Of a stretch of 64,000 nt of DNA, positions 4,660 through 50,234 are shown piece by piece (the stretch's first letter is position 1; every line of letters starts with the position of its first letter). This stretch comes from Rhipicephalus microplus. Lineage: Eukaryota; Arthropoda; Arachnida; Ixodida; Ixodidae. Below the pieces are notes generated by a model that ran no database searches, was not told the origin of the DNA, and saw only the letters and a program-made list of their open reading frames with translations. A program made the position numbers and the translations under genes. The DNA lies in contig NC_134710.1 of NCBI RefSeq assembly GCF_043290135.1, positions 278,214,776-278,278,775 of the forward strand, read 5' to 3'.

Positions 4660-5671
4660 ACTGCCTCCTTGTGGTTTTACCGTTCGTTTTCTGTAGAAGT
4701 ATCACGTCCGGTTGCTTCTTGTTAATGAGGAACTGTTGTAGGTGTCCCTGCTTACAAGCGTATCCTCTACAATTGCATTGCCAAATTACACAATTCTTGT
4801 ATTCCTGAGTGACAGCGAATATAATAGTTTTCCGGTGTTCTCCCATGTCTCTGCGTTCTCTGATCTGCGGTATGGTTTCCCAGCTGGTTTCAAGGGTGAC
4901 GATAGTTATAGTGCGAGAACAAAACGACGACACAGTCTCTGTGTCATCGTTTTGTTCTCGCACTATAACTATTGTCATGCCATACCAACTAGCCCAAGCT
5001 GCCACACTTCTTGGTTTCAGGGGCGTGCAGCGGATAGCTGGTAGCTTTCGGCTGATTGGTTTCGACCCTTATGTGCAGGGTGGCGAGTTGTTGCTTTATT
5101 TGCTGCATTGCAGTCGTTAGCTGCTGCATCGCGTTTGTAAGCTAAATAAGCATTGCTTCCATTTCTGCCTTATGCGTGTTTTGTCTTCCTATATTTTTTT
5201 CCGAATTGTCCTCATGTCTTCTTCGACATAAGCTTCTCGTCTATCGTGTCATTTCCTGTTGTTTCTTCTGTTTTCTGTGTTTGACTCTCAGCTTGCGCCA
5301 GGTCCACTTCTACTGCCCTACGTTTCGAGGGGGTAGGCAGCGTTTCGTTCACAGAAAGCACGTCCCCTGTATTTTCTCCAAATAAAATCATTGCGCCTTT
5401 TTTAGATACCTCGGTTTTTAGACTAGCATTTTCTTCCCTAAGTTCATATATTACGTTTTTCTATTTACTGTTATCCTTTTCCAATTGCTCGAATGGTTTT
5501 TGGATTCGCATGATTATGTCGTGTTCCCTTTGACTGTTAGATAAGACAATGCCAGACCCCACACGCTCCCCGGAAGTGGCTTCCGCCTAGCTCACTCTGA
5601 AGGCTTTGGGTAGACTGTCAGTATTACAGGGTCTGCCAGCTCGCGTTGCTGTGGTGTCGGCACTGGCTGTA
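4660..5671 (-). pseudogene. LINE A, second half of ORF1 and start of ORF2 (endonuclease)
   Basis: Read on the minus strand. From 5671 down to about 5200 the frames give the coiled-coil C-terminal half of a LINE ORF1 protein (for example ELREENASLKTE). Around 4790-4690 follows the start of ORF2: WQCNCRGYACKQGHLQQ, then PDVILLQKTNGK. These correspond to the first conserved blocks of the APE-type endonuclease (usually W.WN.RG and PD.I.LQE); here the catalytic E is replaced by K in LQK. ORF2 stops being recognisable below about 4660. The frame is continued upstream at 13356-14544, beyond the inserted TIR element. A foldback (4897-4979) and stops show it is dead. Confidence 0.8.
4897..4979. repeat. 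Foldback with 3-nt loop (family 2)
   Basis: Inverted repeat with arms of about 38 bp (starting GATAGTTATAGTGCGAGAAC, then AAAACGA.GACACAG) and a loop of only about three bases. Its sequence is unrelated to the foldbacks at 404 and 3807. It lies in the degenerate ORF1/ORF2 junction of LINE A. Confidence 0.75.
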
Positions 5672-5862
5672 CACAGTAAAAATTTTTGCACCCAAAAGGG
5701 TGTAAAAAGGTTGCTTTTACGAGAAAGCACCCTTTGCAACACCCTTTAACACCCATAAATGGTCGATTGAAAAAAAGCACCCCTTTGTTTGGGTGCTTGC
5801 CTCGATAGCACCCTAAAATGGGCTCTAAGGGTGCTTTTGTGCCTTAAAGGGTGTAGGTGCCG
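5672..5862. repeat. TIR plus subterminal AAGGGTGC array, outer end of copy 1
   Basis: After the terminal CACAGTAAAAATTTTT come roughly ten copies, in both orientations, of a short motif of the type AAAGGGTGC / GCACCCTT (around 5690-5850). Arrays of short transposase-binding motifs just inside the TIRs are known from CACTA-type and some other DNA transposons. Binding here is inference. Confidence 0.8.
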
Positions 5863-5904
5863 ATTCATCAGATGGAATATGCAGCATAAGAAGAACACAT
5901 AATT

Positions 5905-6135
5905 ATAATATTTGGGATTTTACGTCTCAAAAACCTCGATATGATTATGAGGGCCGTTGTAGTGGAAAGCTGCAGAGATTTTCACCATTTGGTGTTCTTT
6001 AATGAGCGCTCATATCGCACAGTGCAAAGGCTTCTACCTTTTCGCCTCCGCCTTAATTCAACTGCCACGGCCGGCATCGAACCCGCGACCTTCGGATTTG
6101 CGGCCGAGCAGCGCAGCTACTGCACGAATATGTGG
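5905..6135 (-). repeat. SINE fragment inside TIR element copy 1
   Basis: Minus-strand copy of the tick tRNA-derived SINE. Its tail (GGGATTTTACGTCTC, then CATATCG-like) lies at 5910-5960, the body with TTCTTTAATGAGCGC at 5998-6012, and the B-box-like GGTTCGATGCC equivalent near 6070-6085. It is more diverged than the copies at 32786 and 40237. The same SINE is found at the mirrored position in copy 2. Confidence 0.7.
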
Positions 6136-6329
6136 ACCTTGCGTTATATGACGGCCTAATTGACTTAGAATGTGTGAAGGTGCTCTCCGAATACAGCAGA
6201 ATGTCAGCAGAAGCAAATCGCGTTTCATCTATAATGGCAATTAACTGCAATCCATGTTACGAAAGCTTTCCTTAGCGTTGGTTATAAGCTGCATGTTTGC
6301 TATGGATTATATACACACAAATAATGTTC

Positions 6330-6598
6330 GCCCGAGTATGGGTGCGTGTGCGTGTAAGCGCGATTGTGTGTACACCCGTGCATGTGTGCGTGAGCGTGTA
6401 TGTGCGAGTCCGTGCTTGTGTTAAGCGTGCCTGTGCACATGTGTACGCCCATGCATGCGTGCGTTTACGGTCGCGTGTGTGTGTGGCCGCTTGTGTGTAT
6501 ACGTGTATGTGTGTGCACCTGTGAATAAGTATGCGTGTGTATCAGCCCGTGCGCCCTAGAATTTCGTGTGTGTGTGTGTGTGTGTGTGTGTGCGGGGG
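6330..6598. repeat. Degenerate (TG)n microsatellite, copy 1
   Basis: TG/CG-rich tract, pure from about 6567 to 6591 and followed by a G run. The mirrored tract in copy 2 (about 21300-21560) is shorter and contains CCC interruptions. This accounts for most of the small length difference between the two copies. Confidence 0.85.
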
Positions 6599-7650
6599 GG
6601 AGGCACTGCTTCTTATTGTTTAAGGTCCCACACCTGTTGAGACTGGGAGTCTATATGGGAGGTGGCTTAAGGAATGGCGGTGGTCAACGCACTGTACACG
6701 GACTATTCAGTACATGGAAATCAGCTGCACATTTTCGTACTTGATCGTTGCTTACGAACTTGAACTTGCTGTGGTAGCTGATTAGGTCCGCTGAGGTGCT
6801 TCTATGCCCGAAAACGTGGGTTATGACCAATTCCCACGGAAAGCTGTCCCTGCATTTATGCACAACCATCGTCTATATTAACAACGTTTAACAAGAACGT
6901 GCCGTGCCTTTGCTACAGGTGCTTAGCTAGCTCATTGGGTAACCATATGGAATTATGTGCTGATCATGTGGTCAGCAAAAAGTTTGTTATAACAACCTCG
7001 GCACGTTTCGTGGTGCGTGACAAGCCTTCTAAACATCCGCGACTGTGGATTAATTTGTTCCAGCTTCGACTAAGCATTCAGTGTTTGCGGCACCATACGC
7101 GGAAGCGCCGGACACAGACAATGCAAAAAGAAATTCCTCTGGAAAAAGCTGTAGCGATGCTCTCCCGCTAATGCCACCGAGGACGAAATAATTATTGTTT
7201 CTGGCCATTCCATGGTGCACTTTGTTTTCCACAAGTTTTGCTTCACTATTTTTCGCCCACTGCAATCGCATTCCGTCAAAATACTCAAGGAACCTGAGGC
7301 TGGTAAATACCTACGTCGCTGTGAGACTGACTGGAACGAGAGTTGCCATTTACAAGGAGTCATTCGGCGTCGAACGGCCGTCCGCCGTATGCGCCATAGC
7401 GTTTGCCTTTCGGCGCCGTCCTGGCGGGTTTCCCGCTCCGCCCCCCCCGCTCACCCCGGCCAGCGTAGCTCCCACAACGGCGGCGTAGATAAGCGAATAG
7501 TTGCGTCACCGAACACCTGCGTCGACAGCTGCGGCGCCGCCGCTCCTTCTCTCTCTCAACGTCGCTCTCTGTCTCATCGTCTTTCAAATGCGTTGCGTTG
7601 GTCTGGGGTCTTGGTCGCTGTGTGTGTTCTAGCGAACAGGCGCATATTCA

Positions 7651-7743
7651 ATGGTGGTCACGCATGACACCGTGTTCGAAGTGACGCTCGGATTAAGGAA
7701 TATTCATGGAGTGGCGGACACGGACAACGTGGGCCTGTTAACG
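7651..7743 (+). other. Exon-like block 1 of a possible captured gene, copy 1
   Basis: An ATG at 7651 opens exactly 31 codons (MVVTHDTVFEV..., ending ..DNVGLLT) that run without a stop into a consensus 5' splice site (ACG|GTGAGT). Upstream 7360-7640 is CpG- and GC-rich, unlike the A/T-rich neighbourhood, and could be a promoter or first-exon region. The peptide is not recognised. The junction to the next block is uncertain: with phase 0 the next exon-like block reads a stop after 14 codons, so another exon may lie between or the coding claim may be wrong. It is conserved in copy 2 (20154-20246). Confidence 0.4.
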
Positions 7744-9078
7744 GTGAGTGTACTGTTTTCGTAGGTAGTAATCATACAGCGCTAGCTGGGCGTCTGCAGC
7801 AGCTCTGCCGAAGTAGGCTGCCAGCCATTTACAACAGCATGCGTTCGCGGGCCTGTTGCAGATGCCCGATTAAACGTGTGACTTAACGAATTCACAGTGC
7901 TATGCGCGATGTTGTGTAAGTGCCTGCATCACTCATACAGTGAGTGATGTGATCACTTAACAAGGGCGGGATTAGTTGCTGATCGCACATTGTCTCTACA
8001 CTGCACAAAGTGATTGATATTGTTTTAAGATGTGCTTTGGGCTACATCGTAATAACATTTCTATTAATACTCAAATGTGCAACGTGCTTCTGTAGGTGTA
8101 AGCGTAAAAAAAGAAAGAAAAAGCAAAAATTATGTACAGAGGCGCACTGTACGAAATGGCTTTTTTTTTTGCTTAAAGACGGTATAGTTGGAGGTGCTGA
8201 TATGCCGCAATGCTCCCAGCACGTGCGCCTCGGTCTTTTAAGCTATTTAGGACAAGTGCCACCAGCAACAGGGAAAGATCTAGCAGACTTCCAAAGGCGC
8301 GTTGTTGTGGCCATCGCCGTGCGTTGTTTTCCCTCGTTTCTGTTTGCTGTTTTCGTGCTTCGGTTTCATCTGCGATAATGTTCGGCGTTATAACAGAATC
8401 GAGAGAGTATACGTGACTGTTGGAGCTATGTGTGGTTGCTCTAGCATAAGCCATGGCTGCTGCAACGTAGTCGGCGTTCGCGCGCGTTGGTGTCGTTCGA
8501 ACGCTCTTACTTGCGTGATTGTGTTTAACTGAGTATTTAGGCACGGGCTGCGTTTGTAAATCCCGTAGTCAATAATCGCTAATAGCGTGCCTCTGATTGC
8601 CATCAGAGGATGGGCTTGGTTGTCGAATTATGCCAGACGCTTTTTCTGAAAGCAAGCTTTGAATTTTTTTTTCAAAGAAGTACTTTCATACGTGCATGGC
8701 AGCACCTATTGCAGGCCCGCAACTCATTAAAAACTGGACGAGCTATCACATTTTTTATCAAATTACAATGAATTAAGATGATTGAATTATAGATGATTGA
8801 ATTATAGATGACGAATTTCTGTGCTAGATTAGGTGCACAAAACACATGTTCGCAGCCCTACGTCTAGAAAGCAGGCAAATAGGAAGCACAGCGTCAAATT
8901 TGGATTAGATTCCATTGACGGAGCGTCTTGTGAGGGTAGAAAGAACGAGAAAATTGTTCATTTTTGATGCCCTTATAGAGGCAGTCAGAATCGCACTGAT
9001 CGGTGACTTGTAACAATTCCTCAGATTGTTAGAGGCGTGATTAAAGTCAGTAAATCTTTTACTTTTTTTTTTTTGCAG

Positions 9079-9164
9079 ACCTCTTCGCTAGTGCCACGCC
9101 GAAGATCATTTGTTCTCATGTAAAAGAGAAAGCAGAGATGTCTTCACTGTTTGTACATGAAGAG
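9079..9164 (+). other. Exon-like block 2, copy 1
   Basis: An 86-nt block preceded by a T-rich tract and TTTTGCAG and followed by GTAAGT, a textbook internal exon outline. One frame is fully open and contains an internal ATG (MSSLFVHEE at the end). It runs in phase into the next block. No homology recognised. Confidence 0.45.
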
Positions 9165-9528
9165 GTAAGTTTCTTGTGCATTTTGATTAATGTTACATGT
9201 TCTGAACGTTGTACTTTAGGAATTGTTTTTCACACTGGCTCACTACCCTAGAAGGAATTTGATTCTTAGGTGAGTTCAAGCTTTCGTAAGTGCCATTTTT
9301 GAGCTGTAGTCTTACACTTCACCTCATTTCGGGAATTTGCTGTATGCTGGAAAACCCTTATCTTTATCATACGAAATTATTGGAATGTATGGGTTGTATG
9401 CTTTGAGTTCAGTGTAATGTCAATTACACGCCATTTCGAAGGATACACACTACACATTCTTTATATATGGTGCTGCCAGAACAGCACGAACATCATTTTA
9501 TGAGAAGTCATATTTGCTTTTATTACAG

Positions 9529-9680
9529 GATGAGAGGGTGCCGCTGACGTCCTGCGTAGTCTACCCCCCGACCCCAGCCTAGCTAGAGCAAGCCTACTTC
9601 CTGAACCTCCACATGGATAACCGAAAAATCTTCCGTGTCAGTAATGACGAAGAAGGAGTGACAGCACTGATGAGTTGATT
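9529..9680 (+). other. Exon-like block 3 (possible last exon), copy 1
   Basis: Begins after TATTACAG. Continuing the open frame of block 2, it reads DERVPLTSC..PTPA and stops at 9580-9582. A second frame reads LEQAYFLNLHMDNRKIF... and stops at 9676-9678. The three blocks together look like a spliced gene or gene fragment carried by the element. Function unknown. Confidence 0.4.
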
Positions 9681-9776
9681 TTTTTTATTTTCAACATTGT
9701 CTACGGCCGCAAGGCCTTTAACAACCACCGTGATTGAGCGGCTTTTTCTCGGCGTGAGTTTGGAGTTTATCAAAGA

Positions 9777-9830
9777 AGTTGTTCAGGCAGTACGACGCTG
9801 AAAATTTTAGTGTCACAATGCCTGAACAAC
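9777..9830. repeat. Strong hairpin, copy 1
   Basis: GTTGTTCAGGCA at 9778 is matched by TGCCTGAACAAC near 9818-9829, and the interior GACGCTGAAAA / TTTTAGTGTC also pairs, giving a stem of about 25 bp. It lies just downstream of the exon-like blocks. It could be a terminator-like or small-TIR remnant; the role is unknown. Mirrored near 18070-18123. Confidence 0.6.
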
Positions 9831-10460
9831 TTTTTTTCGAGTGTGGTCATGGTAGATGAACAAACATTGTTATTTGTGTAAGTTATTTTGCTTAGATATA
9901 GCTGGACCATTCCATGCCAAACGTCCCAGCCACTTTGGCGACCATCTGAATTGTATTTGAAAAAAAAAAGTGCTGGCTTACTGCGTTGAAAACAGTGAAC
10001 TGCTAGAATATTTCAGCGAGAAAAAAAGTTTGTTCATGTGGCTGGCTTATAACTTCCTGGCATAATGCCGTCTGTGTGCTGTTTGTGGAAAATTTTGTTT
10101 TAAAACTACCGCTTATTTTTTCTAAAGCAAATTCGGTCTACCTGTTAAGTAAATGTGCTTCTGTAAGGTATTTGAAGGTCAATAATAATAGTGCAATTTT
10201 TTTGCCACATTCGCTTCCAAGAATAAAGCCAAAATGTGTTATGTATGCATTTTTTATTGCAATATTGCACTTTGTATGAATATCTGAGCAGTGAATACTT
10301 ACTCCACAGAAGGTATATTTTGAGGAAAAAATATCTTTAGACCTCTCAAGCTGCTGAAGTATACGAGAAAATATCACAAATTTCACAAAATTGTGATTTT
10401 TGTCCGTATTGAGATGCAATTTGCTCCATGTTGTGATATAATAAAAAGTTATCATTATAC

Positions 10461-11210
10461 CTAAATTGTAAGAAAATGAAATTCTTTCTGTAATAAAAAT
10501 CTTATTGCAAAAAGGACAGGAAAGAGCGCTGTCAACTGAATTTTATTGAAGGTTCTACGAGCGTTTTTATACTGAACACAAGACCAGGGCTCATCTGCAA
10601 CAACACATGTGTGACCATGACAAAATAATTTTAACCGAGAAAAGAATACTCTTTTTCGGAAAAGATAAGTGAAGGTGTACTGATGCATTGATCCTTGACC
10701 TTCCTGATAGAGTTCTAAAATCTCTCATTTTTCTGCTTGCTTTTTTTTTCAAAAACCGTGTTTTATGAAACCTAGGACTACACTTACATTCTTTACGGTG
10801 TCCGGCCATGAGACTACTATAGCCCTTCTTAACATTTAAAGCATGCTGTCTTGCTTGATCATTGAAGCATTGCGCAGTTTGTCCTATGTTTACTTTTCCA
10901 CATGTTAGCGGTGTGTTATACAAAGTAGATTGGCATTCAGTAAACCTATTCTAGTGACGAATGGTGCAAGATTGACTGTTCCTGTTGCTGTAAGTACATG
11001 CACTTTTGAAAGCTTGAAAGGGGTGGAAAACAACAATGTCATATCTGCTGGCTCTTTTCCTAAAATTGTGAGACACCTTATGTACGTAGTACCGTGTGAC
11101 ATGCAAAGGTGATTGGTCATTCTCTTTTTCTTTTGGTCCTGTTTGCTTTAACTTTACTTTCTGCAGGAGGGTTTCGCAAACAAGTGTGATGATGCTGTTG
11201 GGGTATTGGC
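10461..11210 (-). pseudogene. Penelope-like element 3' part with GIY-YIG endonuclease, copy 1
   Basis: Read on the minus strand from about 11210. The order is a reverse transcriptase/linker end (KTLLQKVKL-like), a linker (VSHNFRKRASRYDIVV), then at 10923-10700 a block YNTPLTCGKVNIGQTAQCFN, GHRKECKCSPRF, KTRFL. This is the GIY-YIG-type endonuclease signature of Penelope-like elements (usual form Y.IPL.CGK.YIGQTGRC.N..L.EH). The 3' tail follows to about 10461. The frame contains shifts and the element lacks its RT core, so it is a fossil. Confidence 0.8.
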
Positions 11211-11344
11211 TGGTGCTATCAGCCCAGGAGTGCTAAGAATGTTCTGCCTTTTGATAGTGGGCATTCAAAATTAGTAGAAAGAGGAATTGATACCACATGT
11301 ACTCAGGCCACCCTTCAGAAGTCATGTTAGCACAAGGGTGAGGT

Positions 11345-11895
11345 CAGGTTTAAAAACCAGATTAAAAGACTAAAAGATGCTGGGTATCCCAACAGAATCA
11401 TCACACCCGTTTGCAAAACCCTCCTGCAGAAAGTAAAGTTAGACAGGACCAACAAAAAACAATGACCAAAACCTTTGCATGTTATACCACATCATGTGTC
11501 TCACAATTAAAAAAATAGCCAGCAGATATGATATTAGCGTGTTGTTTTCCACGCCTTGAAAGCTTTCAAAAGTGTGTGTACTAAACAGCAACAGGAATAG
11601 TCAATATTGCCTTATTCGTCACGAGAATAGGTTTACTTAATGCCAATTTAACGTTTGTAGAAGTATTTTTTATCAGGTAAACCAATGATCAGTGCATCAC
11701 TACACGTTCACTTATCCTTTCCGAGAGGGAGTATTCTTTTCACAGTTAAAGATTATTTTGTAGTGCTCACACGTGTCGTCGCGCATGAACACAGTTCTTG
11801 TACTCCGTATAAAAGCGCTCGTAGCACATTCATTAAATTCAGTTGACGGTCGGTGCTCTTTCCTGTCCTTTCTGTCTCTTCCTAAAGTTGTCATG
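11345..11895 (+). pseudogene. Penelope-like 3' part, opposite strand, GIY-YIG deleted, copy 1
   Basis: The plus strand reads RLKDAGYPNRIITPVCKTLL near 11368, then KVKLDRTNKK, which is the RT C-terminal/linker region of a Penelope-like element, followed by a degenerate linker. The part corresponding to the GIY-YIG domain is missing: homology jumps from near 11650 to near 11680, where the partner copy has some 230 bp. The 3' tail (AATTCAGTTGACGGTCGGTG near 11837) then resumes. Together with the minus-strand copy it forms a head-to-head pair. Confidence 0.7.
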
Positions 11896-12195
11896 CTGTG
11901 ACTAGCACACAACCACGATGAACCAACTCTCCCAAATTAAGCTCTTGTTACGTAACACGTAGACCGAATTTTGTATGAAAAGAAGGAGCGGTGCTTTTAA
12001 AATAAAATTTTTCACATACAACACCTAGACGGCATTCCAGGAAGTTCAGAAGGCAGCCACGTGACCAAATATTTTTCCTCTCCTAAATATTCCAGAAGTT
12101 CACTATTTTCAATGCAGCACGAGTTTTTCGAATACATTTGAGATGGTTGCCAAAATGGCTGGGACATTGGCATAAAGTGACCCAGCTGTGTCATT

Positions 12196-13094
12196 AGCCA
12201 TAATTATGCATTATCTCTTTTGTTTTTTGTGTGTTTTGACTCAGTTTTGTGTTCGTTTTTAGCTTATTGTGTTTCTGATCATTGTATTGGTTTCTTAACT
12301 ATTCGCTAAAGTTATATGTGCGAACTTGTATATGTTTGCATGTACATCATTTCTCATAACCAATTGTTATACATCCAGGAATACAAAGCTTAATCCACTG
12401 TGATTGTATACATTTGAAAACACTATCCATATATATTTTCGTGTGGATCACTTCTTGGGAACGATTGTGTACATGAAGGCGTATATAGTGAAATCATGGT
12501 GATTGTATATATTTGAAAGAATCATAAGTATATATTTGCCTGTATTTCATTCCTATTAACCGATTGTGTACATGAAGGAGTATTAAACTGGAAACCACTG
12601 GGATTGTAGGTACTTGAAAGAATTATAGGGATATATTAGCGTATATTTCATTTGTAGTCTCTATGTACTTGAAGCAGTATACTAAACTGAAACCAGTGTA
12701 ATTGTATGTTGCAAAGAATTGTCAATGAAGTGAAACTGAATAAATATAATAAACATTTGAGGTTGTTGCATGTGTAGTGTACGTATACGTGAACGTATAT
12801 CTGGTGAAAAAGTTGTGTGGCAGAAGAAAAGTTTATGTTTTATTTGCCTATTAAATAAACGCAATATGCAAGGGCAGCAAGACTTCATTTTCTGTAACGC
12901 GCATTATGCATATACTGTGAAGTATATATAGATCCAGCACAAGTTCATACACGATAGTACGCATTTATATTTTTGCCCAGACGCAATGAATGGAGCTCGA
13001 CAGGTGGCGCACCATTGATAATGAGGACCACTTTCTTCAAGTAGTGTGTAATCAGTGCATGCTGATATCTATTAGTGCAGTCTAAAAGAATACT
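12196..13094. other. A/T-rich inner part of copy 1
   Basis: No gene recognised. Contains several imperfect repeats of ATTGTGTACATGAAGG..GTAT spaced about 80 bp apart (around 12465, 12565, 12650), each followed by AAACCACTG..ATTGTA. It looks like a short degenerate tandem repeat with a period of about 85-100 bp. Confidence 0.45.
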
Positions 13095-13355
13095 GGCACC
13101 CCTGCCATGGGCACTCAACACCCTTGTGCACCCTTCTCGCACCCTCCTCAGAGGGTGCTAAAAAGTGATGGACATCGAAGGCACCCTTCCTTAAGGGTGT
13201 TTTTTTAACACCCTACAGTTTTTTTACATGTACACCCTATTCTAAGGGTGCATGAAAAAGCACCCTTTTTGGAAGGTGCTGAATTAACACCCTTAGGGTG
13301 TCGTCCACGGGACAAGCTCATTTACACCCTTCTGGGTGTAAAAATTTTTACTGTG
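13095..13355. repeat. TIR plus subterminal AAGGGTGC array, inner end of copy 1
   Basis: Repeated CACCCTT / AAGGGTG motifs (about twelve in both orientations) leading to the terminal ..GGGTGTAAAAATTTTTACTG. This is the inverted counterpart of the array at 5672-5862. Confidence 0.8.
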
Positions 13356-14544
13356 TAGACGTGCCCTGGGACTTGGGTCTGTTCTAGGCACCAGCACCGA
13401 GTCTAGGTTGGCGCTAGTGCGGATCGTCCAAACGTGAGGCGGATCGTCCTCGTCTCTCTCTCTGCAGCGCCGAACAATCATGTCCTCTTTCTCCATAGAT
13501 TGTATGGTCCTTGTCTGCTTCTTCTTCACGTTGCGTTCATTCCCACTGGCGTTTCTTCACTATGTAAAAAGTGTTGTACTTAGCGTGGCATTTTTTGTGT
13601 CTGGTTGGATCATCCTTGCAGCAAAGAGACATCTCGGTTCACAGTGGTGATATTTCGATGAATCATTGCAGCCACAACATCTGCATCTTTTACTTACTGG
13701 GTTGGGGCGAACGTCGGATTAATGTCCGAGTCGGCGACATGCGTAGCACGTCTGGTATTGCTTCTTGTATAGCACGCAATGGTGCTTCATTCCGTTGTAG
13801 TTGATGTGCGGTACTACACTTCCTTCGAATACGACGATAGCGTTTGCCATGTTTCCCATCATCTTCACATGCAATAACATCGGGTTGTGCTTGCTGCCGA
13901 TGTGTCTCACTATAATTTCAGGGGAGTCTTCGTCGGGTATCCCACGTGTGATGCCCTTGGTTGTATTTCTGGCGTGGCTGCGTACGCGCTCGCTGCGTAT
14001 TCTTTGTCTCCCATGCGTAGTTTCGAGGTTTCACAGTATCTTCTAGTTCTCCCTTCTGATGGGGTGCTTACTACTATTATAATATGTCTTTCGTTGACAG
14101 AAAGATAATGCATCTTGTTTCTTCTTGCTTCAGTCCAGTTGCGGAGCGTATGCTGTCGCCGATCCGAGCAGCATGCTAAGTCGAGGTGCTGAAGCCATCT
14201 GCAGGACGTAAGATGACCTTGATGTCGCCCACTGGCCAATTCGGTTTCTTGGTCGTTATGTTGAGTCTTCGCACGTTTCTAGGTGCTCATTTTACATACC
14301 TGTATTGATCGGTCATCGTGTAAGCTGTCTGCTCAGCAGAGTGAGTGCTTCCGACGCATGTTTTGCTTCCCTTGTATTTGGCCCGTACTTCAAACCACCC
14401 CTTCTTTTTTGAACCTCCATCGGCGATATTTCTTCACCGTAAACGTGGAAAACTTCCATTGGGGTCATAAATAGAACCGTTAAGCAAGTAGTAAGAGGGC
14501 GTCACTCTGCTCACTTTGCTCGGCCTAGTCGCTCACCGTGTCTG
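13356..14544 (-). pseudogene. LINE A, first half of ORF1 (spacer between the two TIR copies)
   Basis: The minus strand from about 14480 reads a broken LINE ORF1 protein. Near 14270-14215 is RLNITTKKPNWPVGDIKVIL; at 13890-13740 is IVVFEGSVVPHINYNG and then a zinc-knuckle-like CYACRRLGH; at 13690-13640 a Cys-rich block. A basic/acidic linker and PRTDPSPRARL follow at the edge of TIR copy 1. The frame resumes at 5671. Stops and shifts are present. Domain order (N-terminal domain, zinc knuckles, coiled coil) matches ORF1 of RNase H-bearing arthropod LINEs. Confidence 0.75.
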
Positions 14545-16009
14545 CACAGTAAAAATTTTTACACCCAGAAGGGTGTAAATGAGCTTGTCCCATGGACGAC
14601 ACCCTAAGGGAGTTAATTCAGCACCTTCCAAAAAGGGCGCTTTTTCATGCACCCTTAGAATAGGTCGTACATGTAAAAAAACTGTAGGGTGTTACAAAAA
14701 CACCCTTAAGGAAGGGTGCCTACGATGTCCATCACTTTTTTAGCACCCTCTGAGGAGGCTGCGAGAAGGGTGCACAAGGGTGTTGAGTGCCCATGGCAGG
14801 GGTGCCAGTATTCTTTCAGACTGCACTAATAGATATCAGCATGCACTGATTACACACTACATGAAGAAAGTGGTCCTGATTATCAATGGTGCGCCACCTG
14901 TCGAGCTCCATTCATTTCGTCTGGGCAAAAATATAAACGCGTACTATCGTGTATGAACTTGTGCTGGATCTATATATACTTCACAGTATATGCATAATGT
15001 GCGTTACAGAAAATGAAGCCTTGCTGCCCTTGCATATTGCGTTTATTTAATAGGCAAATAAAACATAAACTTTTCTTCTGCCACACAACTTTTTCACCAG
15101 ATATACGTTCACGTATACGTACACTACACATGCAACACCTCAAATGTTTATTATATTTATTCAGTTTCACTTCATTGACAATTCTTTGCAACATACAATT
15201 ACACTGGTTTCAGTTTAGTATACTGCTTCAAGTACATAGAGACTACAAATGAAATATACGCTAATATATCCCTATAATTCTTTCAAGTACCTACAATCCC
15301 AGTGGTTTCCAGTTTAATACTCCTTCATGTACACAATCGGTTAATAGGAATGAAATACAGGCAAATATATACTTATGATTCTTTCAAATATATACAATCA
15401 CCATGATTTCACTATATACGCCTTCATGTACACAATCGTTCCCAAGAAGTGATCCACACGAAAATATATATGGATAGTGTTTTCAAATGTATACAATCAC
15501 AGTGGATTAAGCTTTGTATTCCTGGATGTATAACAATTGGTTATGAGAAATGATGTACATGCAAACATATACAAGTTCGCACATATAACTTTAGCGAATA
15601 GTTAAGAAACCAATACAATGATCAGAAACACAATAAGCTAAAAACGAACACAAAACTGAGTCAAAACACACAAAAAACAAAAGAGATAATGCATAATTAT
15701 GGCTAATGACACAGCTGGGTCACTTTATGCCAATGTCCCAGCCATTTTGGCAACCATCTCAAATGTATTCGAAAAACTCGTGCTGCATTGAAAATAGTGA
15801 ACTTCTGGAATATTTAGGAGAGGAAAAATATTTGGTCACGTGGCTGCCTTCTGAACTTCCTGGAATGCCGTCTAGGTGTTGTATGTGAAAAATTTTATTT
15901 TAAAAGCACCGCTCCTTCTTTTCATACAAAATTCGGTCTACGTGTTACGTAACAAGAGCTTAATTTGGGAGAGTTGGTTCATCGTGGTTGTGTGCTAGTC
16001 ACAGCATGA

Positions 16010-16560
16010 CAACTTTAGGAAGAGACAGAAAGGACAGGAAAGAGCACCGACCGTCAACTGAATTTAATGAATGTGCTACGAGCGCTTTTATACGGAGTAC
16101 AAGAACTGTGTTCATGCGCGACGACACGTGTGAGCACTACAAAATAATCTTTAACTGTGAAAAGAATACTCCCTCTCGGAAAGGATAAGTGAACGTGTAG
16201 TGATGCACTGATCATTGGTTTACCTGATAAAAAATACTTCTACAAACGTTAAATTGGCATTAAGTAAACCTATTCTCGTGACGAATAAGGCAATATTGAC
16301 TATTCCTGTTGCTGTTTAGTACACACACTTTTGAAAGCTTTCAAGGCGTGGAAAACAACACGCTAATATCATATCTGCTGGCTATTTTTTTAATTGTGAG
16401 ACACATGATGTGGTATAACATGCAAAGGTTTTGGTCATTGTTTTTTGTTGGTCCTGTCTAACTTTACTTTCTGCAGGAGGGTTTTGCAAACGGGTGTGAT
16501 GATTCTGTTGGGATACCCAGCATCTTTTAGTCTTTTAATCTGGTTTTTAAACCTGACCTC
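16010..16560 (-). pseudogene. Penelope-like 3' part without GIY-YIG, copy 2
   Basis: Mirror of 11345-11895. The same internal deletion of the endonuclease region is present, so the deletion predates the duplication of the 7.7-kb element. Confidence 0.7.
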
Positions 16561-16689
16561 ACCCTTGTGCTAACATGACTTCTGAAGGGTGGCCTGAGTA
16601 CATGTGGTATCAATTCCTCTTTCTACTAATTTTGAATGCCCACTATCAAAAGGCAGAACATTCTTAGCACTCCTGGGCTGATAGCACCA

Positions 16690-17440
16690 GCCAATACCCC
16701 AACAGCATCATCACACTTGTTTGCGAAACCCTCCTGCAGAAAGTAAAGTTAAAGCAAACAGGACCAAAAGAAAAAGAGAATGACCAATCACCTTTGCATG
16801 TCACACGGTACTACGTACATAAGGTGTCTCACAATTTTAGGAAAAGAGCCAGCAGATATGACATTGTTGTTTTCCACCCCTTTCAAGCTTTCAAAAGTGC
16901 ATGTACTTACAGCAACAGGAACAGTCAATCTTGCACCATTCGTCACTAGAATAGGTTTACTGAATGCCAATCTACTTTGTATAACACACCGCTAACATGT
17001 GGAAAAGTAAACATAGGACAAACTGCGCAATGCTTCAATGATCAAGCAAGACAGCATGCTTTAAATGTTAAGAAGGGCTATAGTAGTCTCATGGCCGGAC
17101 ACCGTAAAGAATGTAAGTGTAGTCCTAGGTTTCATAAAACACGGTTTTTGAAAAAAAAGCAAGCAGAAAAATGAGAGATTTTAGAACTCTTTATCAGGAA
17201 GGTCAAGGATCAATGCATCAGTACACCTTCACTTATCTTTTCCGAAAAAGAGTATTCTTTTCTCGGTTAAAATTATTTTGTCATGGTCACACATGTGTTG
17301 TTGCAGATGAGCCCTGGTCTTGTGTTCAGTATAAAAACGCTCGTAGAACCTTCAATAAAATTCAGTTGACAGCGCTCTTTCCTGTCCTTTTTGCAATAAG
17401 ATTTTTATTACAGAAAGAATTTCATTTTCTTACAATTTAG
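16690..17440 (+). pseudogene. Penelope-like 3' part with GIY-YIG, copy 2
   Basis: Mirror of 10461-11210. The GIY-YIG block (PLTCGKVNIGQTAQCFN, GHRKECKCSPRF) lies at 16977-17150. Compared with copy 1 the frame is shifted right after the lysine run near 17160, splitting the C-terminal part into a separate frame at 17171-17440. Confidence 0.8.
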
Positions 17441-18221
17441 GTATAATGATAACTTTTTATTATATCACAACATGGAGCAAATTGCATCTCAATACGGACA
17501 AAAATCACAATTTTGTGAAATTTGTGATATTTTCTCGTATACTTCAGCAGCTTGAGAGGTCTAAAGATATTTTTTCCTCAAAATATACCTTCTGTGGAGT
17601 AAGTATTCACTGCTCAGATATTCATACAAAGTGCAATATTGCAATAAAAAATGCATACATAACACATTTTGGCTTTATTCTTGGAAGCGAATGTGGCAAA
17701 AAAATTGCACTATTATTATTGACCTTCAAATACCTTACAGAAGCACATTTACTTAACAGGTAGACCGAATTTGCTTTAGAAAAAATAAGCGGTAGTTTTA
17801 AAACAAAATTTTCCACAAACAGCACACAGACGGCATTATGCCAGGAAGTTATAAGCCAGCCACATGAACAAACTTTTTTTCTCGCTGAAATATTCTAGCA
17901 GTTCACTGTTTTCAACGCAGTAAGCCAGCACTTTTTTTTTCAAATACAATTCAGATGGTCGCCAAAGTGGCTGGGACGTTTGGCATGGAATGGTCCAGCT
18001 ATATCTAAGCAAAATAACTTACACAAATAACAATGTTTGTTCATCTACCATGACCACACTCGAAAAAAAGTTGTTCAGGCATTGTGACACTAAAATTTTC
18101 AGCGTCGTACTGCCTGAACAACTTCTTTGATAAACTCCAAACTCACGCCGAGAAAAAGCCGCTCAATCACGGTGGTTGTTAAAGGCCTTGCGGCCGTAGA
18201 CAATGTTGAAAATAAAAAAAA

Positions 18222-18371
18222 TCAACTCATCAGTGCTGTCACTCCTTCTTCGTCATTACTGACACGGAAGATTTTTCGGTTATCCATGTGGAGGTTCAGG
18301 AAGTAGGCTTGCTCTAGCTAGGCTGGGGTCGGGGGGTAGACTACGCAGGACGTCAGCGGCACCCTCTCATC
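18222..18371 (-). other. Exon-like block 3, copy 2
   Basis: Mirror of 9529-9680, with the AG acceptor (TGTAATA on the plus strand) preserved. Confidence 0.4.
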
Positions 18372-18735
18372 CTGTAATAAAAGCAAATATGACTTCTCAT
18401 AAAATGATGTTGGTGCTGTTCTGGCAGCACCATATATAAAGAATGTGTAGTGTGTATCCTTCGAAATGGCGTGTAATTGACATTACACGGAACTCAAAGC
18501 ATACAACCCATACATTCCAATAATTTCGTATGATAAAGATAAGGGTTTTCCAGCATACAGCAAATTCCCGAAATGAGGTGAAGTGTAAGACTACAGCTCA
18601 AAAATGGCACTTACGAAAGCTTGAACTCACCTAAGAATCAAATTCCTTCTAGGGTAGTGAGCCAGTGTGAAAAACAATTCCTAAAGTACAACGTTCAGAA
18701 CATGTAACATTAATCAAAATGCACAAGAAACTTAC

Positions 18736-18821
18736 CTCTTCATGTGCAAACAGTGAAGACATCTCTGCTTTCTCTTTTACATGAGAACAAATGATCTTCG
18801 GCGTGGCACTAGCGAAGAGGT
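18736..18821 (-). other. Exon-like block 2, copy 2
   Basis: Same 86 nt as 9079-9164, with intact TTTTGCAG acceptor and GTAAGT donor. One substitution changes the penultimate codons (FVHEE to FAHEE). The open frame is kept. Confidence 0.45.
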
Positions 18822-20153
18822 CTGCAAAAAAAAAGTAAAAGATTTACTGACTTTAATCACGCCTCTAACAATCTGAGGAATTGTTACAAGTCACCGATCA
18901 GTGCGATTCTGACTGCCTCTATAAGGGCATCAAAAATGAACAATTTTCTCGTTCTTTCTACCCTCACAAGACGCTCCGTCAATGGAATCTAATCCAAATT
19001 TGACGCTGTGCTTCCTATTTGCCTGCTTTCTAGACGTAGGGCTGCGAACATGTGTTTTGTGCACCTAATCTAGCACAGAAATTCGTCATCTATAATTCAA
19101 TCATCTATAATTCAATCATCTTAATTCATTGTAATTTGATAAAAAATGTGATAGCTCGTCCAGTTTTTAATGAGTTGCGGGCCTGCAATAGGTGCTGCCA
19201 TGCACGTATGAAAGTACTTCTTTGAAAAAAAAATTCAAAGCTTGCTTTCAGAAAAAGCGTCTGGCATAATTCGACAACCAAGCCCATCCTCTGATGGCAA
19301 TCAGAGGCACGCTATTAGCGATTATTGACTACGGGATTTACAAACGCAGCCCGTGCCTAAATACTCAGTTAAACACAATCACGCAAGTAAGAGCGTTCGA
19401 ACGACACCAACGCGCGCGAACGCCGACTACGTTGCAGCAGCCATGGCTTATGCTAGAGCAACCACACATAGCTCCAACAGTCACGTATACTCTCTCGATT
19501 CTGTTATAACGCCGAACATTATCGCAGATGAAAGCGAAGCACGAAAACAGCAAACAGAAACGAGGGAAAACAACGCACGGCGATGGCCACAACAACGCGC
19601 CTTTGGAAGTCTGCCAGATCTTTCCCTGTTGCTGGTGGCACTTGTCCTAAATAGCTTAAAAGACCGAGGCGCGCGTGCTGGGAGCATTGCGGCATATCAG
19701 CACCTCCAACTATACCGTCTTTAAGCAAAAAAAAAAGCCATTTCGTACAGTGCGCCTCTGTACATAATTTTTGCTTTTTCTTTCTTTTTTTACGCTTACA
19801 CCTACAGAAGCACGTTGCACATTTGAGTATTAATAGAAATGTTATTACGATGTAGCCCAAAGCACATCTTAAAACAATATCAATCACTTTGTGCAGTGTA
19901 GAGACAATGTGCGATCAGCAACTAATCCCGCCCTTGTTAAGTGATCACATCACTCACTGTATGAGTGATGCAGGCACTTACACAACATCGCGCATAGCAC
20001 TGTGAATTCGTTAAGTCACACGTTTAATCGGGCATCTGCAACAGGCCCGCGAACGCATGCTGTTGTAAATGGCTGGCAGCCTACTTCGGCAGAGCTGCTG
20101 CAGACGCCCAGCTAGCGCTGTATGATTACTACCTACGAAAACAGTACACTCAC

Positions 20154-20246
20154 CGTTAACAGGCCCACGTTGTCCGTGTCCGCCACTCCATGAATATTCC
20201 TTAATCCGAGCGTCACTTCGAACACGGTGTCATGCGTGACCACCAT
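20154..20246 (-). other. Exon-like block 1, copy 2
   Basis: Mirror of 7651-7743, with the ATG and the GTGAGT donor both retained. The CpG-rich upstream segment is at about 20255-20530. Confidence 0.4.
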
Positions 20247-21299
20247 TGAATATGCGCCTGTTCGCTAGAACACACACAGCGACCAAGACCCCAGACCAAC
20301 GCAACGCATTTGAAAGACGATGAGACAGAGAGAGCGACGTTGAGAGAGAGAAGGAGCGGCGGCGCCGCAGCTGTCGACGCAGGTGTTCGGTGACGCAACT
20401 ATTCGCTTATCTACGCCGCCCTTGTGGGAGCTACGCTGGCCGGGGTGAGCGGGGGGGGGCGGAGCGGGAAACCCGCCAGGACGGCGCCGAAAGGCAAACG
20501 CTATGGCGCATACGGCGGACGGCCGTTCGACGCCGAATGACTCCTTGTAAATGGCAACTCTCCTTCCAGTCAGTCTCACAGCGACGTAGGTATTTACCAG
20601 CCTCAGGTTCCTTGAGTATTTTGACGGAATGCGATTGCAGTGGGCGAAAAATAGTGAAGCAAAACTTGTGGAAAACAAAGTGCACCATGGAATGGCCAGA
20701 AACAATAATTATTTCGTCCTCGGTGGCATTAGCGGGAGAGCATCGCTACAGCTTTTTCCAGAGGAATTTCTTTTTGCATTGTCTGTGTCCGGCGCTTCCG
20801 CGTATGGTGCCGCAAACACTGAATGCGTAGTCGAAGCTGGAACAAATTAATCCACAGTCGCGGATGTTTAGAAGGCTTGTCACGCACCACGAAACGTGCC
20901 GAGGTTGTTATAACAAACTTTTTGCTGACCACATGATCAGCACATAATTCCATATGGTTACCCAATGAGCTAGCTAAGCACCTGTAGCAAAGGCACGGCA
21001 CGTTCTTGTTAAACGTTGTTAATATAAACGATGGTTGTGCATAAATGCAGTGACAGCTTTCCGTGGGAATTGGTCATAACCCACGTTTTCGGGCATAGAA
21101 GCACCTCAGCGGACCTAATCAGCTACCACAGCAAGTTCAAGTTCGTAAGCAACGATCAAGTACGAAAATGTGCAGCTGATTTCCATGTACTGAATAGTCC
21201 GTGTACAGTGCGTTGACCACCGCCATTCCTTAAGCCACCTCCCATATAGACTCCCAGTCTCAACAGGTGTGGGACCTTAAACAATAAGAAGCAGTGCCT

Positions 21300-21560
21300 C
21301 CCCCCCGCACACACACACCCACACACACGAAATTCTAGGGCGCACGGGCTGATACACACGCATACTTATTCACAGGTGCACACACATACACGTATACACA
21401 CAAGCGGCCACACACACACGCGACCGTAAACGCACGCATGCATGGGCGTACACATGTGCACAGGCACGCTTAACACAAGCACGGACTCGCACATACACGC
21501 TCACGCACACATGCACGGGTGTACACACAATCGCGCTTACACGCACACGCACCCATACTC
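21300..21560. repeat. Degenerate (CA)n microsatellite, copy 2
   Basis: Mirror of the (TG)n tract of copy 1, shortened and interrupted by CCC. Confidence 0.8.
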
Positions 21561-21757
21561 GGGCGAACATTATTTGTGTGTATATAATCCATAGCAAACA
21601 TGCAGCTTATAACCAACGCTAAGGAAAGCTTTCGTAACATGGATTGCAGTTAATTGCCATTATAGATGAAACGCGATTTGCTTCTGCTGACATTCTGCTG
21701 TATTCGGAGAGCACCTTCACACATTCTAAGTCAATTAGGCCGTCATATAACGCAAGG

Positions 21758-21988
21758 TCCACATATTCGTGCAGTAGCTGCGCTGCTCGGCCGCAAATCC
21801 GAAGGTCGCGGGTTCGATGCCGGCCGTGGCAGTTGAATTAAGGCGGAGGCGAAAAGGTAGAAGCCTTTGCACTGTGCGATATGAGCGCTCATTAAAGAAC
21901 ACCAAATGGTGAAAATCTCTGCAGCTTTCCACTACAACGGCCCTCATAATCATATCGAGGTTTTTGAGACGTAAAATCCCAAATATTA
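21758..21988 (+). repeat. SINE fragment inside TIR element copy 2
   Basis: Mirror of 5905-6135; here the SINE reads on the plus strand, with the B-box-like GGGTTCGATGCC at 21810-21821. Confidence 0.7.
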
Positions 21989-22221
21989 TAATTATGTGTT
22001 CTTCTTATGCTGCATATTCCATCTGATGAATCGGCACCTACACCCTTTAAGGCACAAAAGCACCCTTAGAGCCCATTTTAGGGTGCTATCGAGGCAAGCA
22101 CCCAAACAAAGGGGTGCTTTTTTTCAATCGACCATTTATGGGTGTTAAAGGGTGTTGCAAAGGGTGCTTTCTCGTAAAAGCAACCTTTTTACACCCTTTT
22201 GGGTGCAAAAATTTTACTGTG

Positions 22222-22640
22222 TGCAGCGCGAGCGACGGCGTCAACCACTGCTGCGTTCGACTTAGTTCGTGTGCCAGTGTGACACCGCAATAAATGCACT
22301 GCAGTGATCATAAAAAACGGCTCACCTGCAAGAAACTTAGTATTGGCAGGGTTCGCTGACCTTCCCAAAACTGCTGAGCGATATGTCGTTGATCGGAGAG
22401 CGGAAGTTTCACCACAAACATAAAACATTCGGGGAGCCGACATGAAACCCGTACGCACTCCCTGGCCCGTCGTCGCCTCCCCCGAGGCCCTTCTGTCAAA
22501 GAAATAACGCCGCCGTCGACGTGACGTGCTAGGCAGATCAGCGGAGACATTGCCTGTTGCGGCAGCATCAACGTGCGCTGAGATCAAAATTTTAAAATGC
22601 TACCTGCGCTGTAGTTTTCCCAACAAGGGTAGGTTTCTTC
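22222..22640 (-). mobile_element. Probable 5' untranslated part of LINE A
   Basis: Sequence continuing LINE A upstream of TIR copy 2. It is GC-rich compared with what follows. A minus-strand frame (22587-22189, 132 codons) has no recognised domain. Assignment rests only on its position beyond the insertion and on the TG duplication. The outer limit of LINE A is not defined. Confidence 0.4.
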
Positions 22641-25600
22641 TTGAGGTGTGCACCTGAGAAGACTTGAAAGCACCGCGGTGCAATCACGGTTTTTGAAGTT
22701 TTATTTTATTGTAGTTCAGTGCTCAGTGGTGCAATTTAAGACATACGCATTGGGGCCCGGTGAGTGCTTTGACAAGTTTCTTTTGTGTAAAAAGCTGTGT
22801 GAAGTTTGAATTTTGAAACTTATCTTAGGAAGAGAAATCCGCTTTATTCACACAGAATGCGTCGTCCCCAGGGACTCCAAGTGAGCAGTGAACCATTCGT
22901 GCCAAGGAGCAATCGCTAGCTTCTTTTTTGTTTGATGGCAGCTTATATATAAGCTCCTACCACGTTGATCATGAGCGAGCTGGACTGAGATTTTTTGCAA
23001 GAATAAAATCCTTCACAGCCCCACAAAGTAATTTTTTGTGACCAATTCTCGCGTCTGGGTTAACCGATCCGCACATATAATAATAATGTGTTAACCAATC
23101 TGCACATAAAAAACACGAGCCGGTAAGAACTATGGGTAATAGTAGGCTTGAATGTGGTGGATGCTCATGGCGTGTGCTCTCGTGAGGCTTTCATTGGGCA
23201 AATGGCACACGCGACGCTCATTGTTAAGTGTGGTATGTCATTAAATGAAGTCGGTGCCTCACCTGGGAACACCGGGTCTGAGAGATGCGCTTCTCGGTTT
23301 GTTAGACTTTGGGCTACGTGGTGCAGTTCCTCTTTCCCAGGGTTGTCAGAGTGGGTACACACCAATCTTGTTTCAATTCAAATGGCAGAGTCGGTGCAGT
23401 CGACGGACTCCACAAGCGAGTACACCAGTCTGACGCGGAGCACCGCCTCCAGATACACAGCTGGAACTCAACACGGGGCGCTGAAACAAGGCAGAAAAGG
23501 AAGGTCTGTCTATCGAGTGATGAGTTGCCGACATTACATTGCATACTGTTATTTCATTCTCCTGTCGAATTCTGTCGAATTCTTGATGTAATGCAACACT
23601 GTCAGCGTCGCTGTCACTATCCGATGAGTCGCTCGTACAGGGACATCTTTATGACTCGGAGCTGTCTTTTCGAGCAGCAGAAGCAATTCCGACCATTCTG
23701 CCAGCTCGTCCATGTCGTCCAACCTTACCGAGAAAACGAGCGGCTACCACCGACACCCTCAAATAGACACATGTATTAAAGCTAATACGCTATGCCAAGT
23801 TCCTGTCTACTCCGCAAATTCGGTCGCAACAACTCTTCAAGCTCCACGGAGTTACTGTCGCTCTGAATGCGCTCCGGCTCTTTCACGGGAACTCTTGACC
23901 TATGCCTCAACGTGGCCCGAACTCTGTCCGTGGAACACACTGCCTCCTGAATGAGTGGAAGACTTCCGCGTGCAGCCAGCAATTCCGAGGAGAACATTGC
24001 TGCTTCAGCTTCGAGATACAATGCTCGGAGAGTACTCCAAATCGATTACTGACACGCTCGCCCTTGTGCGCTCATGAAATAATGATGCCTTTGTTCCGCA
24101 AGCTGGCCTATTTGATTGCCCACATCCATGTACATCGCTTACAACTGGTAGATTGCCTTCCTAAATCCTTTGCACATCCCGACCTCATGTGCCTTCTCCT
24201 GACGTACCTTTCTAAAAGATTACAGGCGTTTTGCGTTATGCATACGTGATTTTGGCGTCAAAACTGGTTGAGAACTTACCGAAAATGTCGCGAATCAAAA
24301 CTTTACATTTTAGTCTTTACACCTTGTTTTTACGCCGCTTTGCGGGTATTTGCTACAGAAACTTTTCCCCTCTTCAGCACAATGTTTTTGTGCCATGGGT
24401 CCTATGCTGCCGTCGTTTGGACAACTTGACTAGCGGAAGTCGTTATATAATATTTGATCGCCTTCGGGATGCATGGTGCGAGATATTCGTTCACGTAGAC
24501 TTGTTTTCTATCTATCAGTAGATGAGAGTCCTATGGTCTTAACCTTTGGTCTAGGCACGTTGTGAAGCTGTAGATACTGGCAAGTTCATTTGAATGTAAA
24601 CGAAGTAGCAACCAGTTTTAAGAAGGAGGTGTGGCATACGCTCATGTTTACCTTAACATCAAGCAATCTGTGCGAAATTGGTCACTGAGGAGACGGACAG
24701 CGCAGCGTGCGACGCCGTTTGAGTAATAACGACGATCAAACTTCCTAGAGCTTACATAAAACAAATGAATCTTACTGATAACGTGCACAGGTCCCCGGCG
24801 CCAACTTACTTAAAACGACCGACAAGTGGCCAGAACGTGCGATTTGATCATAGTTCAAATGAAAAGACCATGAAATATAGTGGCACGCCACATTCTTTTA
24901 GCGTTGTGACAATAATTTAAATCACGCAAAAATTATTAGAAATTATTTTGTTGCGCAGCTTAGAGGACAAGACTTGAACCTGGAAATATATGGAATACGG
25001 AGTTGATCACTTTGTTGGACGTTGCCGCGTAGTCGGATCCTGTCGTCTATGTTAGTTCTCGAAATGACAGTATGTAAATTATTATCCAGCCACCCTCAAT
25101 TCTGTGCTGCTTATGGCGTGAAACAAAGTGCCATGGTGAAAAGTGGCGTTGCTGTCGCGGCCGCCTGTGAACCAAATCGTGCTATGGTGCATGCATGGGC
25201 GCGGAGTGCACGCAATCGCCGTAAAACCGCTGCACTCGAACAGAACCGCCCACGCACTTACTGTTTGCAGCATGTGAGCACACGGCTTCTTATTCACAGC
25301 AGATAGAGAAAACTCGGATAACAAATTTTTTCCGGCATTTTGCACTTTACCATGCCGGGATCAGATTTTTGTAACTGGTAAGATACTCTTCATGCTGAAA
25401 CGCAATTGAAAAATAGGCACCATAAAAGGGGTTGTTGAGCGTTTTAGGATTTCTAGAAAATTATTTTTGAAAAACTTTGATAGCGTTCATGGACTGATTA
25501 CCTTTGTGAATGCAAATATAAATGCTCATATGCAGAAAGGCTGCATGATCTCCTAATGATGTATTTTTTCTCGTATACTCATGTAAATATACAAACCAAT

Positions 25601-32785: not shown

Positions 32786-33018
32786 TACGGTGGTCTAGTG
32801 GCTAAGGTACTCGGCTGCTGACCCGCAGGGCGCGGGTTCGAATCCCGGCTGCGGCGGCTGCATTTCCGATGGAGGCGGAAACGTTGTAGGCCCGTGTGCT
32901 CAGATTTGGGTGCACGTTAAAGAACCCCAGGTGGTCTAAATTTCCAAAGCCCTCCACTACGGCGTCTCTCATAATCATATAGTGGTTTTGGGACGTTAAA
33001 CCCCACATATCAATCAAT
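32786..33018 (+). repeat. tRNA-derived SINE, full-length copy
   Basis: The RNA polymerase III promoter is visible: A box TGGTCTAGTGGCTAAGG at 32791 and B box GGTTCGAATCC at 32834-32844. The conserved body follows (GGAGGCGGAAACGTTGTAGG, GCACGTTAAAGAACCCCAGG), then the tail GGACGTTAAACCCCACATAT and ATCAATCA. This resembles the Ruka-type SINE described from ixodid ticks (established knowledge; identity not computed). It is the cleanest copy in the window. Confidence 0.9.
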
Positions 33019-35158: not shown

Positions 35159-35552
<394 letters not shown>

Positions 35553-36059
35553 TTAAAAATAGTTAGAGCAAGTCCGATCTTCTTGTCAGATGGAAAAGCT
35601 GCAATTTTTTAGTTTTGCCTAAAGTGGAGTTAGCTCGTTAAAAATCAATAGTAAAAAACGACACATTAGCTTTCTTGCTCCGCTTGCATCACAATCTTTT
35701 TCATAAGCTTAATTTTTATAAATTATTTTGGTACTTCATATTGGCATTTATATTTTTATTATTTTTATTGTAACAATCTATTATTTATGATGATAAATTT
35801 TTATTCACACATTCTTCTTTTAATTTACCTTAAACTATTCGAACCTTTGTCGAAATTACAGATTAGGTATGTGCCAATGAGTCTCAGCATGTTCATCTCC
35901 GTATAGATTGAAGTAAGAACTAGAAGTTAACGTAATTTTATAAGTGGCAATCACGAAGCTGAGCTGTCGGCTGCCGAAAGTATATTTATCCTATCACAGG
36001 TTTGGTGAGGTTCCTTCTCAATTGTGCGCTTCCTGTGGCAAAAAAGAAACTACAGATTT
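35553..36059. other. A/T-rich unassigned DNA
   Basis: No gene recognised. May include the degraded 5' part of the adjoining gypsy element. Confidence 0.4.
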
Positions 36060-40236: not shown

Positions 40237-40475
40237 TTGATTGATATCTAAGGTTGAACGTCCCAAAACTATCATATGATTATAAAAGACGCCGTAGTGG
40301 AGGGCTCCGCAAATTTCGACCACCTGGGGTTCTTTAACATGCACCCAAATCTGAGCGCATGGGCCCACGGCATTATCGCCTACATTGAAAATGCAGCCAC
40401 CGCAGCCGGGACTCAATCTCGCGACCTGCGCGTCAGCAGCCGAGTACCTTAGCCACTAGACCACCGCGCCAGGGC
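40237..40475 (-). repeat. tRNA-derived SINE with 17-bp target duplication
   Basis: Minus-strand copy of the 32786 SINE: the tail is at 40237, the B-box equivalent near 40415, and the A-box equivalent TTAGCCACTAGACCACCGCG near 40449. It is flanked by AATGTAAATTTATTTCA (40220-40236) and AATGTAAACTTATTTCA (40476-40492), a 17-bp duplication with one mismatch, as expected from LINE-mediated insertion. Confidence 0.9.

Positions 40476-43081: not shown

Positions 43082-43156
<75 letters not shown>
43082..43156. repeat. (TA)n microsatellite
   Basis: Perfect dinucleotide array of about 37 units. Confidence 0.97.
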
Positions 43157-47995: not shown

Positions 47996-48000
47996 TTATC

Positions 48001-50231: not shown

Positions 50232-50234
50232 CTA

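Follow-up and report, generated by a model that had tools for sequence, protein, structure and literature searches.

Separately inserted inverted transposon copies in the tick Rhipicephalus microplus, probably made alike by arm-to-arm gene conversion

We analysed a 64,000-nucleotide window of the Rhipicephalus microplus genome (assembly GCF_043290135.1, contig NC_134710.1, positions 278,214,776 to 278,278,775), in which two copies of a 7.7-kb transposable element (TE) with terminal inverted repeats (TIRs) lie close together in opposite orientation. All coordinates below are those of the whole 64-kb window, and the two element copies are called arm A (+) and arm B (−). The arms are two separate insertions in one old long interspersed nuclear element (LINE), and arm B is chimeric. 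As the best explanation, to which we give a probability of about 0.8, the two copies inserted independently and arm-to-arm gene conversion later wrote about 7 kb of arm A into arm B.

Structure and insertion sites of the pair

Comparison of the window with itself by BLAST gives a single long inverted match, 5666–13360 against 22227–14540 (7,701 columns, 99.39%). Arm A is a full-length element of 7,684 bp at 5672–13355 (+), and arm B is a full-length, inverted copy of the same family, 7,677 bp long, at 14545–22221 (−). The ends are exact and both copies have CACAGT..ACTGTG termini. The original prediction had placed both arms correctly to the nucleotide, and its termini as well as its description of two near-identical inverted TIR elements of one large family are borne out. 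It had taken the arms for reverse complements about 99% alike, naming a value below 95% as grounds for dropping the claim; in a global alignment inside the element 7643 of 7689 columns are the same (99.40%). Substitutions number 27 (11 transitions, 16 transversions), and another 19 columns are indels, several of them in homopolymers or in a run of GT.

Each arm has its own 2-bp target-site duplication (TSD). Arm A is flanked by TA on the left (5670–5671) and on the right (13356–13357), and arm B by TG on the left (14543–14544) and on the right (22222–22223). The 1,189-bp spacer between the arms (13356–14544, −) is, as predicted, part of a LINE open reading frame 1 (ORF1). It is decayed, has a translation that resembles a zinc knuckle by eye, and a search with it finds LINE copies matching at about 80% identity. 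The left outer flank (5014–5671, −) continues the LINE of the spacer, an additional piece at 4676–4896 matches the same LINE and by eye contains the start of its endonuclease, and the right outer flank (22224–22468, −) continues the LINE as its upstream part. The outer flanks had been called unrelated. They do not resemble each other only because each covers another part of one old LINE, to which the spacer belongs as well.

To reconstruct the empty site, both elements were cut out, each with one copy of its TSD, and left flank, spacer and right flank were put together. All seven fetched LINE copies align to this sequence in one stretch (2,123–2,124 columns, 79%), and none of them has a gap in the 12 bases to either side of a junction. 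Since each arm has its own TSD and the LINE continues without a gap, both elements sit in one decayed LINE ORF1, tail to tail and 1,187 bp apart in the LINE. The arms are two separate insertions, not the inverted duplication that had been proposed. A single segmental inverted duplication of an element together with its surroundings would reproduce the gross geometry, but we see practically no chance for it: identity ends at the transposon ends, the flanks differ, each copy has a TSD of its own, and both empty sites are intact LINE, so that the empty-site alignment refutes it. Inversion of the spacer by crossing over between the arms was also considered and is not seen; the spacer is in LINE order and the TSDs match.

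Uneven divergence between the arms

In the outer part of arm A (5672–12881, +) 12 of 7197 sites differ from arm B (0.17%), whereas in its inner end (12882–13355, +) 15 of 474 sites do (3.16%). More than half of the substitutions, 15 of 27, thus lie in one 474-bp block, and none of 20,000 random placements clusters so tightly. For comparison with the family we fetched 20 places from the hit list of the arm A 5′ end. Eighteen are full length (7,656–7,714 bp, about 95–97% identical to arm A) and make, together with arms A and B, a set of 20 full copies and 190 pairs. The median distance of the other copy pairs in the inner 474 bp is 3.02%, next to 3.16% for A and B, and in the outer part all 18 other copies are at least 2.23% from A. 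The ratio of inner to outer divergence is 19.0 for A and B and 0.36–2.11 for the other 189 pairs. The arms are therefore more alike over most of their length than the age of the insertions allows, which is what is expected of gene-converted repeats. The family had been supposed to be recent; the inner ends speak against recent transposition as the cause of the likeness, which conversion best explains.

Trees and genome matches separate the two parts as well. In the outer-part tree A and B are sisters (support 1.0) with very short tips on a long stem, and in the 5′ 0.93 kb the arms are mutually the best genome match at 100%, the next being 98%. In the inner-part tree A groups with the fetched copies L009, L010, L012, L013, L014 and L025, and B with L022. 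Over the inner 474 bp 15 of the 18 other copies are nearer to A than B is. B is not among 40 scored genome matches to the inner 476 bp of arm A, and A ranks 30th of 40 scored matches to the inner end of arm B. Among the 20 copies 68 substitutions are private to A and B together; none of them lies in 12672–13355, an absence with a chance of about 0.001 under even spacing.

This bears on the possibility that the arms are simply recent copies, with the inner end of B having mutated faster. Such a history would suit the 11 of 15 inner differences that fall on B's side. It is highly improbable, since the B alleles at 12963, 13023 and 13205 are not new but those of the other subgroup (see below), and since the substitutions private to A and B are missing from the inner stretch.

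As to direction, six copies (subgroup G) were contrasted with the other twelve at 24 diagnostic sites; the sites were picked for that contrast and the counts are descriptive. Arm A has the G allele at 23 of the 24 sites, including all three in its inner end. In arm B the outer sites show it in 20 of 21 cases, and the three in its inner end (14545–15019, −) all lack it; the sole outer exception, 8664, is common to A and B. Arm B is chimeric: its outer part is of the A type and its inner end, which was not homogenised, is not. Because A is coherent and B is chimeric, A is the likely donor. The inner 474 bp of B has 9 private substitutions (0–14 in the other 18 copies, 1 in A) and its outer 7.2 kb has 6. 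The insertion of B looks as old as the other copies, with most of its body rewritten later.

On the spacer side homogenisation ends somewhere between 12610, the last shared private site, and 12963, the first clear subgroup mismatch. There are no substitutions between A and B in 9489–12881, a run noticed post hoc that 108 of 20,000 random placements equal or exceed. This uneven distribution inside the homogenised part is a weak hint of more than one conversion event.

The element family

All 20 full copies start with CACAGT and 19 end with ACTGTG, L011 ending with ACTGTA. An exact 2-bp TSD surrounds 19 of the 20 (14 TA, 3 TG and 2 CA); L019 is the failure. In the two remaining fetched places, L015 and L016, the match ends inside the element and other mobile elements appear to come next. 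In the genome an exact 32-mer from the 5′ end occurs 118 times, and a 39-mer from the 3′ end with up to 3 mismatches has 645 matches in the 3.26 Gb of its 1,202 contigs (reversed control 0), which sets the family size at 645 copies or more.

The TIRs of arm A are 35 bp long (5672–5706, +, and 13321–13355, −) and match at 33 of 35 positions. Subterminal CACCC/GGGTG repeats crowd at both ends of this arm: there are 10 in 250 bp at the 5′ end (5672–5921) and 15 in 260 bp at the 3′ end (13096–13355), i.e. 25 in the terminal 510 bp as compared to 8 in the 7,174-bp interior. Inside the element are an older, imperfect inverted repeat (9914–12173, 78–81%), with reverse-strand matches across this stretch in other full-length copies too, and a tandem repeat with a unit of about 100 bp (12395–12652).

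None of the 20 full copies has an ORF longer than 203 amino acids (aa), and their column majority has none longer than 163 aa. A Pfam scan of 12 element frames gave nothing above cut-off (EGF_MSP1_1 was listed with E 0.0019, below its cut-off), and no DDE transposase with C(2)C and H(3-4)H motifs was seen in these frames. Rfam at gathering threshold has no match in 5000–24000. Searched exactly, the TIR pattern is absent from viral_contigs and genome_contigs, collections that possibly lack this genome. In the open-licence literature we found neither the first 16 letters of the TIR nor a description of this element family. The TIR family is therefore large, abundant and apparently non-coding, and its transposase would have to come from elsewhere. 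A minus-strand frame at 10594–10950 looked Penelope-like by eye; it has no Pfam support and we make no claim for it.

Two groups could be set aside by their TSDs. The TSD of Tc1/mariner elements is not known to be anything but TA, and of the 19 matching TSDs found here five read TG or CA. Transib elements have 5-bp TSDs, and the flanks of arms A and B share only 2 bp.

Some further observations concern the element itself. A CpG-rich stretch at 7272–7671, mirrored in arm B, has 43 CpG in 400 bp, and downstream of it borders resembling splice sites are seen by eye near 7745, 9082 and 9165; the element may here have taken up a promoter and exons of its host. A short repeat at about 5905–6130 presumably resembles the tick short interspersed nuclear element (SINE) Ruka. 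Ruka has been described in Rhipicephalus, according to an excerpt of PMC3160391. In L016 (G000:C2:188372200-188382100), from oriented position 2815 on, there is the end of a different element, CACAGTAAACCGATTCTGACCC..., then CACCC/GGGTG repeats. This foreign end starts directly after a TA inside the family copy, and no ORF longer than 114 aa is present in the next 7,087 bases; the other end of the foreign element is outside the sequence fetched. Several large gene-less families of this kind may exist.

Other features of the window

An element resembling a long terminal repeat (LTR) retrotransposon occupies 47022–51208, with 975-bp direct repeats 98.6% alike and the 5-bp TSD ATGCC. Its 492-aa ORF (48080–49558) is gag-like by eye and has no Pfam match, and the element is apparently inserted in a LINE ORF2. 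A SINE-like repeat is present in three copies about 86% alike (32788–33019, 40235–40466 and 61877–62107). There is a long TTA-type trinucleotide repeat of about 180 bp at 2601–2779, a short tandem repeat of about 390 bp at 35160–35553 with a 4-base period and open in more than one frame, and a perfect self-complementary stretch of 74 bp at 43082–43155.

Discussion

Based on these results we propose the following course of events. Two 7.7-kb non-autonomous, CACTA-like copies inserted independently into one old LINE ORF1; judging from divergence, this happened at about the time when most of the sampled family copies inserted. Much later a break in B would have been repaired from its inverted neighbour A by homologous recombination. 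The copied tract would reach from the outer 5′ end of B, where homology stops, to about 0.4–0.75 kb from the spacer, and the inner end of B would have been left unchanged. It is from this pattern that we infer gene conversion as the mechanism.

A minor share of the probability that we give to conversion falls to a variant in which a transposase cut at the 5′ end of B was repaired from A, so that conversion was coupled to transposition. The homogenised tract does reach the very 5′ end of B, and according to the part of the review PMC8232201 used here, break-induced recombination frequently restores donor sites. On the other hand, no ORF of transposase size was found in the 20 copies, nor an autonomous partner, and the sequence offers nothing that would separate such a cut from an ordinary break.

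The main rival is a local transposition. One of the arms, A or B, would recently have made the other by a short hop, and the inner 3′ end of B would later have been replaced from an unlinked copy. A short hop accounts for the outer identity and also for the closeness of the arms. By our own arithmetic, if 645 copies were scattered at random over 3.26 Gb, about 0.15 pairs would be expected to lie 1.19 kb or less apart, whatever their orientation. Adjacency by chance is thus slightly improbable; we regard it as somewhat lucky and as needing no special process. It is important to note that the hop requires a second, ectopic event, for which no near-identical donor exists among the 40 scored places: the best other match to the inner end of B is 98% (C3:68522587). 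The 9 private substitutions in that end are as many as in old copies. Taken together, we consider a local hop followed by replacement of the end unlikely.

Several points weigh against conversion between two old insertions. Subgroup G was named after the trees had been seen. The tree of the inner 474 bp has mostly modest support and internal branches near zero, only 2 of the 18 fetched copies are nearer to the inner end of B than A is, and the two 40-place lists for the inner ends have 19 places in common besides A. What sets the inner ends apart is thus chiefly changes of B itself together with three subgroup sites, and the split is not deep. Judging by the outer part of A, its inner end should have about 5.3 private substitutions, and it has 1 (P about 0.03). 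About 7 kb is a long tract for a single conversion. Base by base, 18 further full-length copies were compared out of a family of 645 or more, all chosen from hits to the 5′ end of arm A. Finally, the evidence is assembled sequence.

In assembled sequence an error of assembly or polishing has to be weighed, in which the arms truly differ more and one was corrected with reads of the other, or the junctions are wrong. Some of the differences between A and B are one-base homopolymer indels, which would fit. We nevertheless find an artefact very unlikely, because the four ends are exact, the TSDs match and the LINE is continuous in all seven copies. Moreover, true arms at the family divergence of about 3% would easily be told apart, and 27 substitutions remain.

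If conversion from A into B is accepted, it set the clock back over about 94% of the length, and for this reason near-identity is here a misleading sign of recent activity. This calls for caution, as near-identical transposon copies are readily read as very recently active. The original prediction had gone on to call the family still mobile. We find no support for this: in the outer part even the closest pair among the 18 other copies is 1.25% apart, and ORFs above 203 aa are absent from all 20 copies, although in a family of at least 645 copies younger ones may have been missed. It had also been suggested that the arms can extrude as a cruciform and, if transcribed, give double-stranded RNA, which would be possible in principle; about 2.1 kb, consisting of the spacer and the two inner ends, separates the nearly perfect parts of the arms. 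On this reading the pair is a clear illustration of a long tract converted from one inverted repeat to the other in a tick genome. It also draws attention to a TIR family that is large, abundant and gene-less and that another element must move.

Comparison with known systems

In the excerpts of the papers cited here, elements of the CMCT clade have CA..TG ends in most cases and TSDs of 2–5 bp (PMC12730594), and subterminal repeats are found in the CACTA/EnSpm group (PMC8978399). The family in R. microplus resembles non-autonomous members of EnSpm/CACTA (CMC/CMCT) in its CAC..GTG ends, its short TIR, its 2-bp TSD and its dense direct and inverted subterminal repeats. Unlike them it comes with no transposase found here, and its host is a tick. 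The EnSpm families treated in the same excerpt of PMC12730594 have a 3-bp TSD, whereas here it is TA, TG or CA. ESTA, an EnSpm-like group of fungi with TA TSDs described there, is similar in having a 2-bp TSD, mostly TA in our family, and differs in that 5 of our 19 matching TSDs are not TA; there is no transposase here to compare. Ends, subterminal repeats and TSD place the family near the CACTA/EnSpm group. It fits a CACTA-like family and, with no transposase in hand, is not a proven member of CACTA/EnSpm.

Non-allelic conversion between TE copies is known, as the consulted part of the review PMC8232201 sets out. What differs in the present pair is that its copies are adjacent and inverted, with the inner edge of the tract visible. 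Palindromes of X chromosomes likewise have inverted arms more than 99% alike around a non-homologous spacer, kept alike by gene conversion (PMC8981503, in the portion cited). They differ from our pair in size, the median arm in the primate set being 37 kb as compared to 7.7 kb without genes here, and in origin, the arms here coming from two transposon insertions. X linkage of our contig is only inferred. The contig is 513 Mb long, the longest of ten listed with sizes, and in Dermacentor andersoni, an XO species, the X is the longest chromosome according to the excerpt of PMC13105059; by this analogy our contig may be the X. It is conceivable, though we think it doubtful, that new palindromes on the tick X are seeded by transposon insertions, with neighbouring inverted copies of the present family being homogenised again and again through arm-to-arm conversion. 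The pair would then show how a palindrome on the sex chromosome of an XO species begins to form. Conversion between arms and between TE copies is a process of a known kind, and its presumed footprint here is clean.

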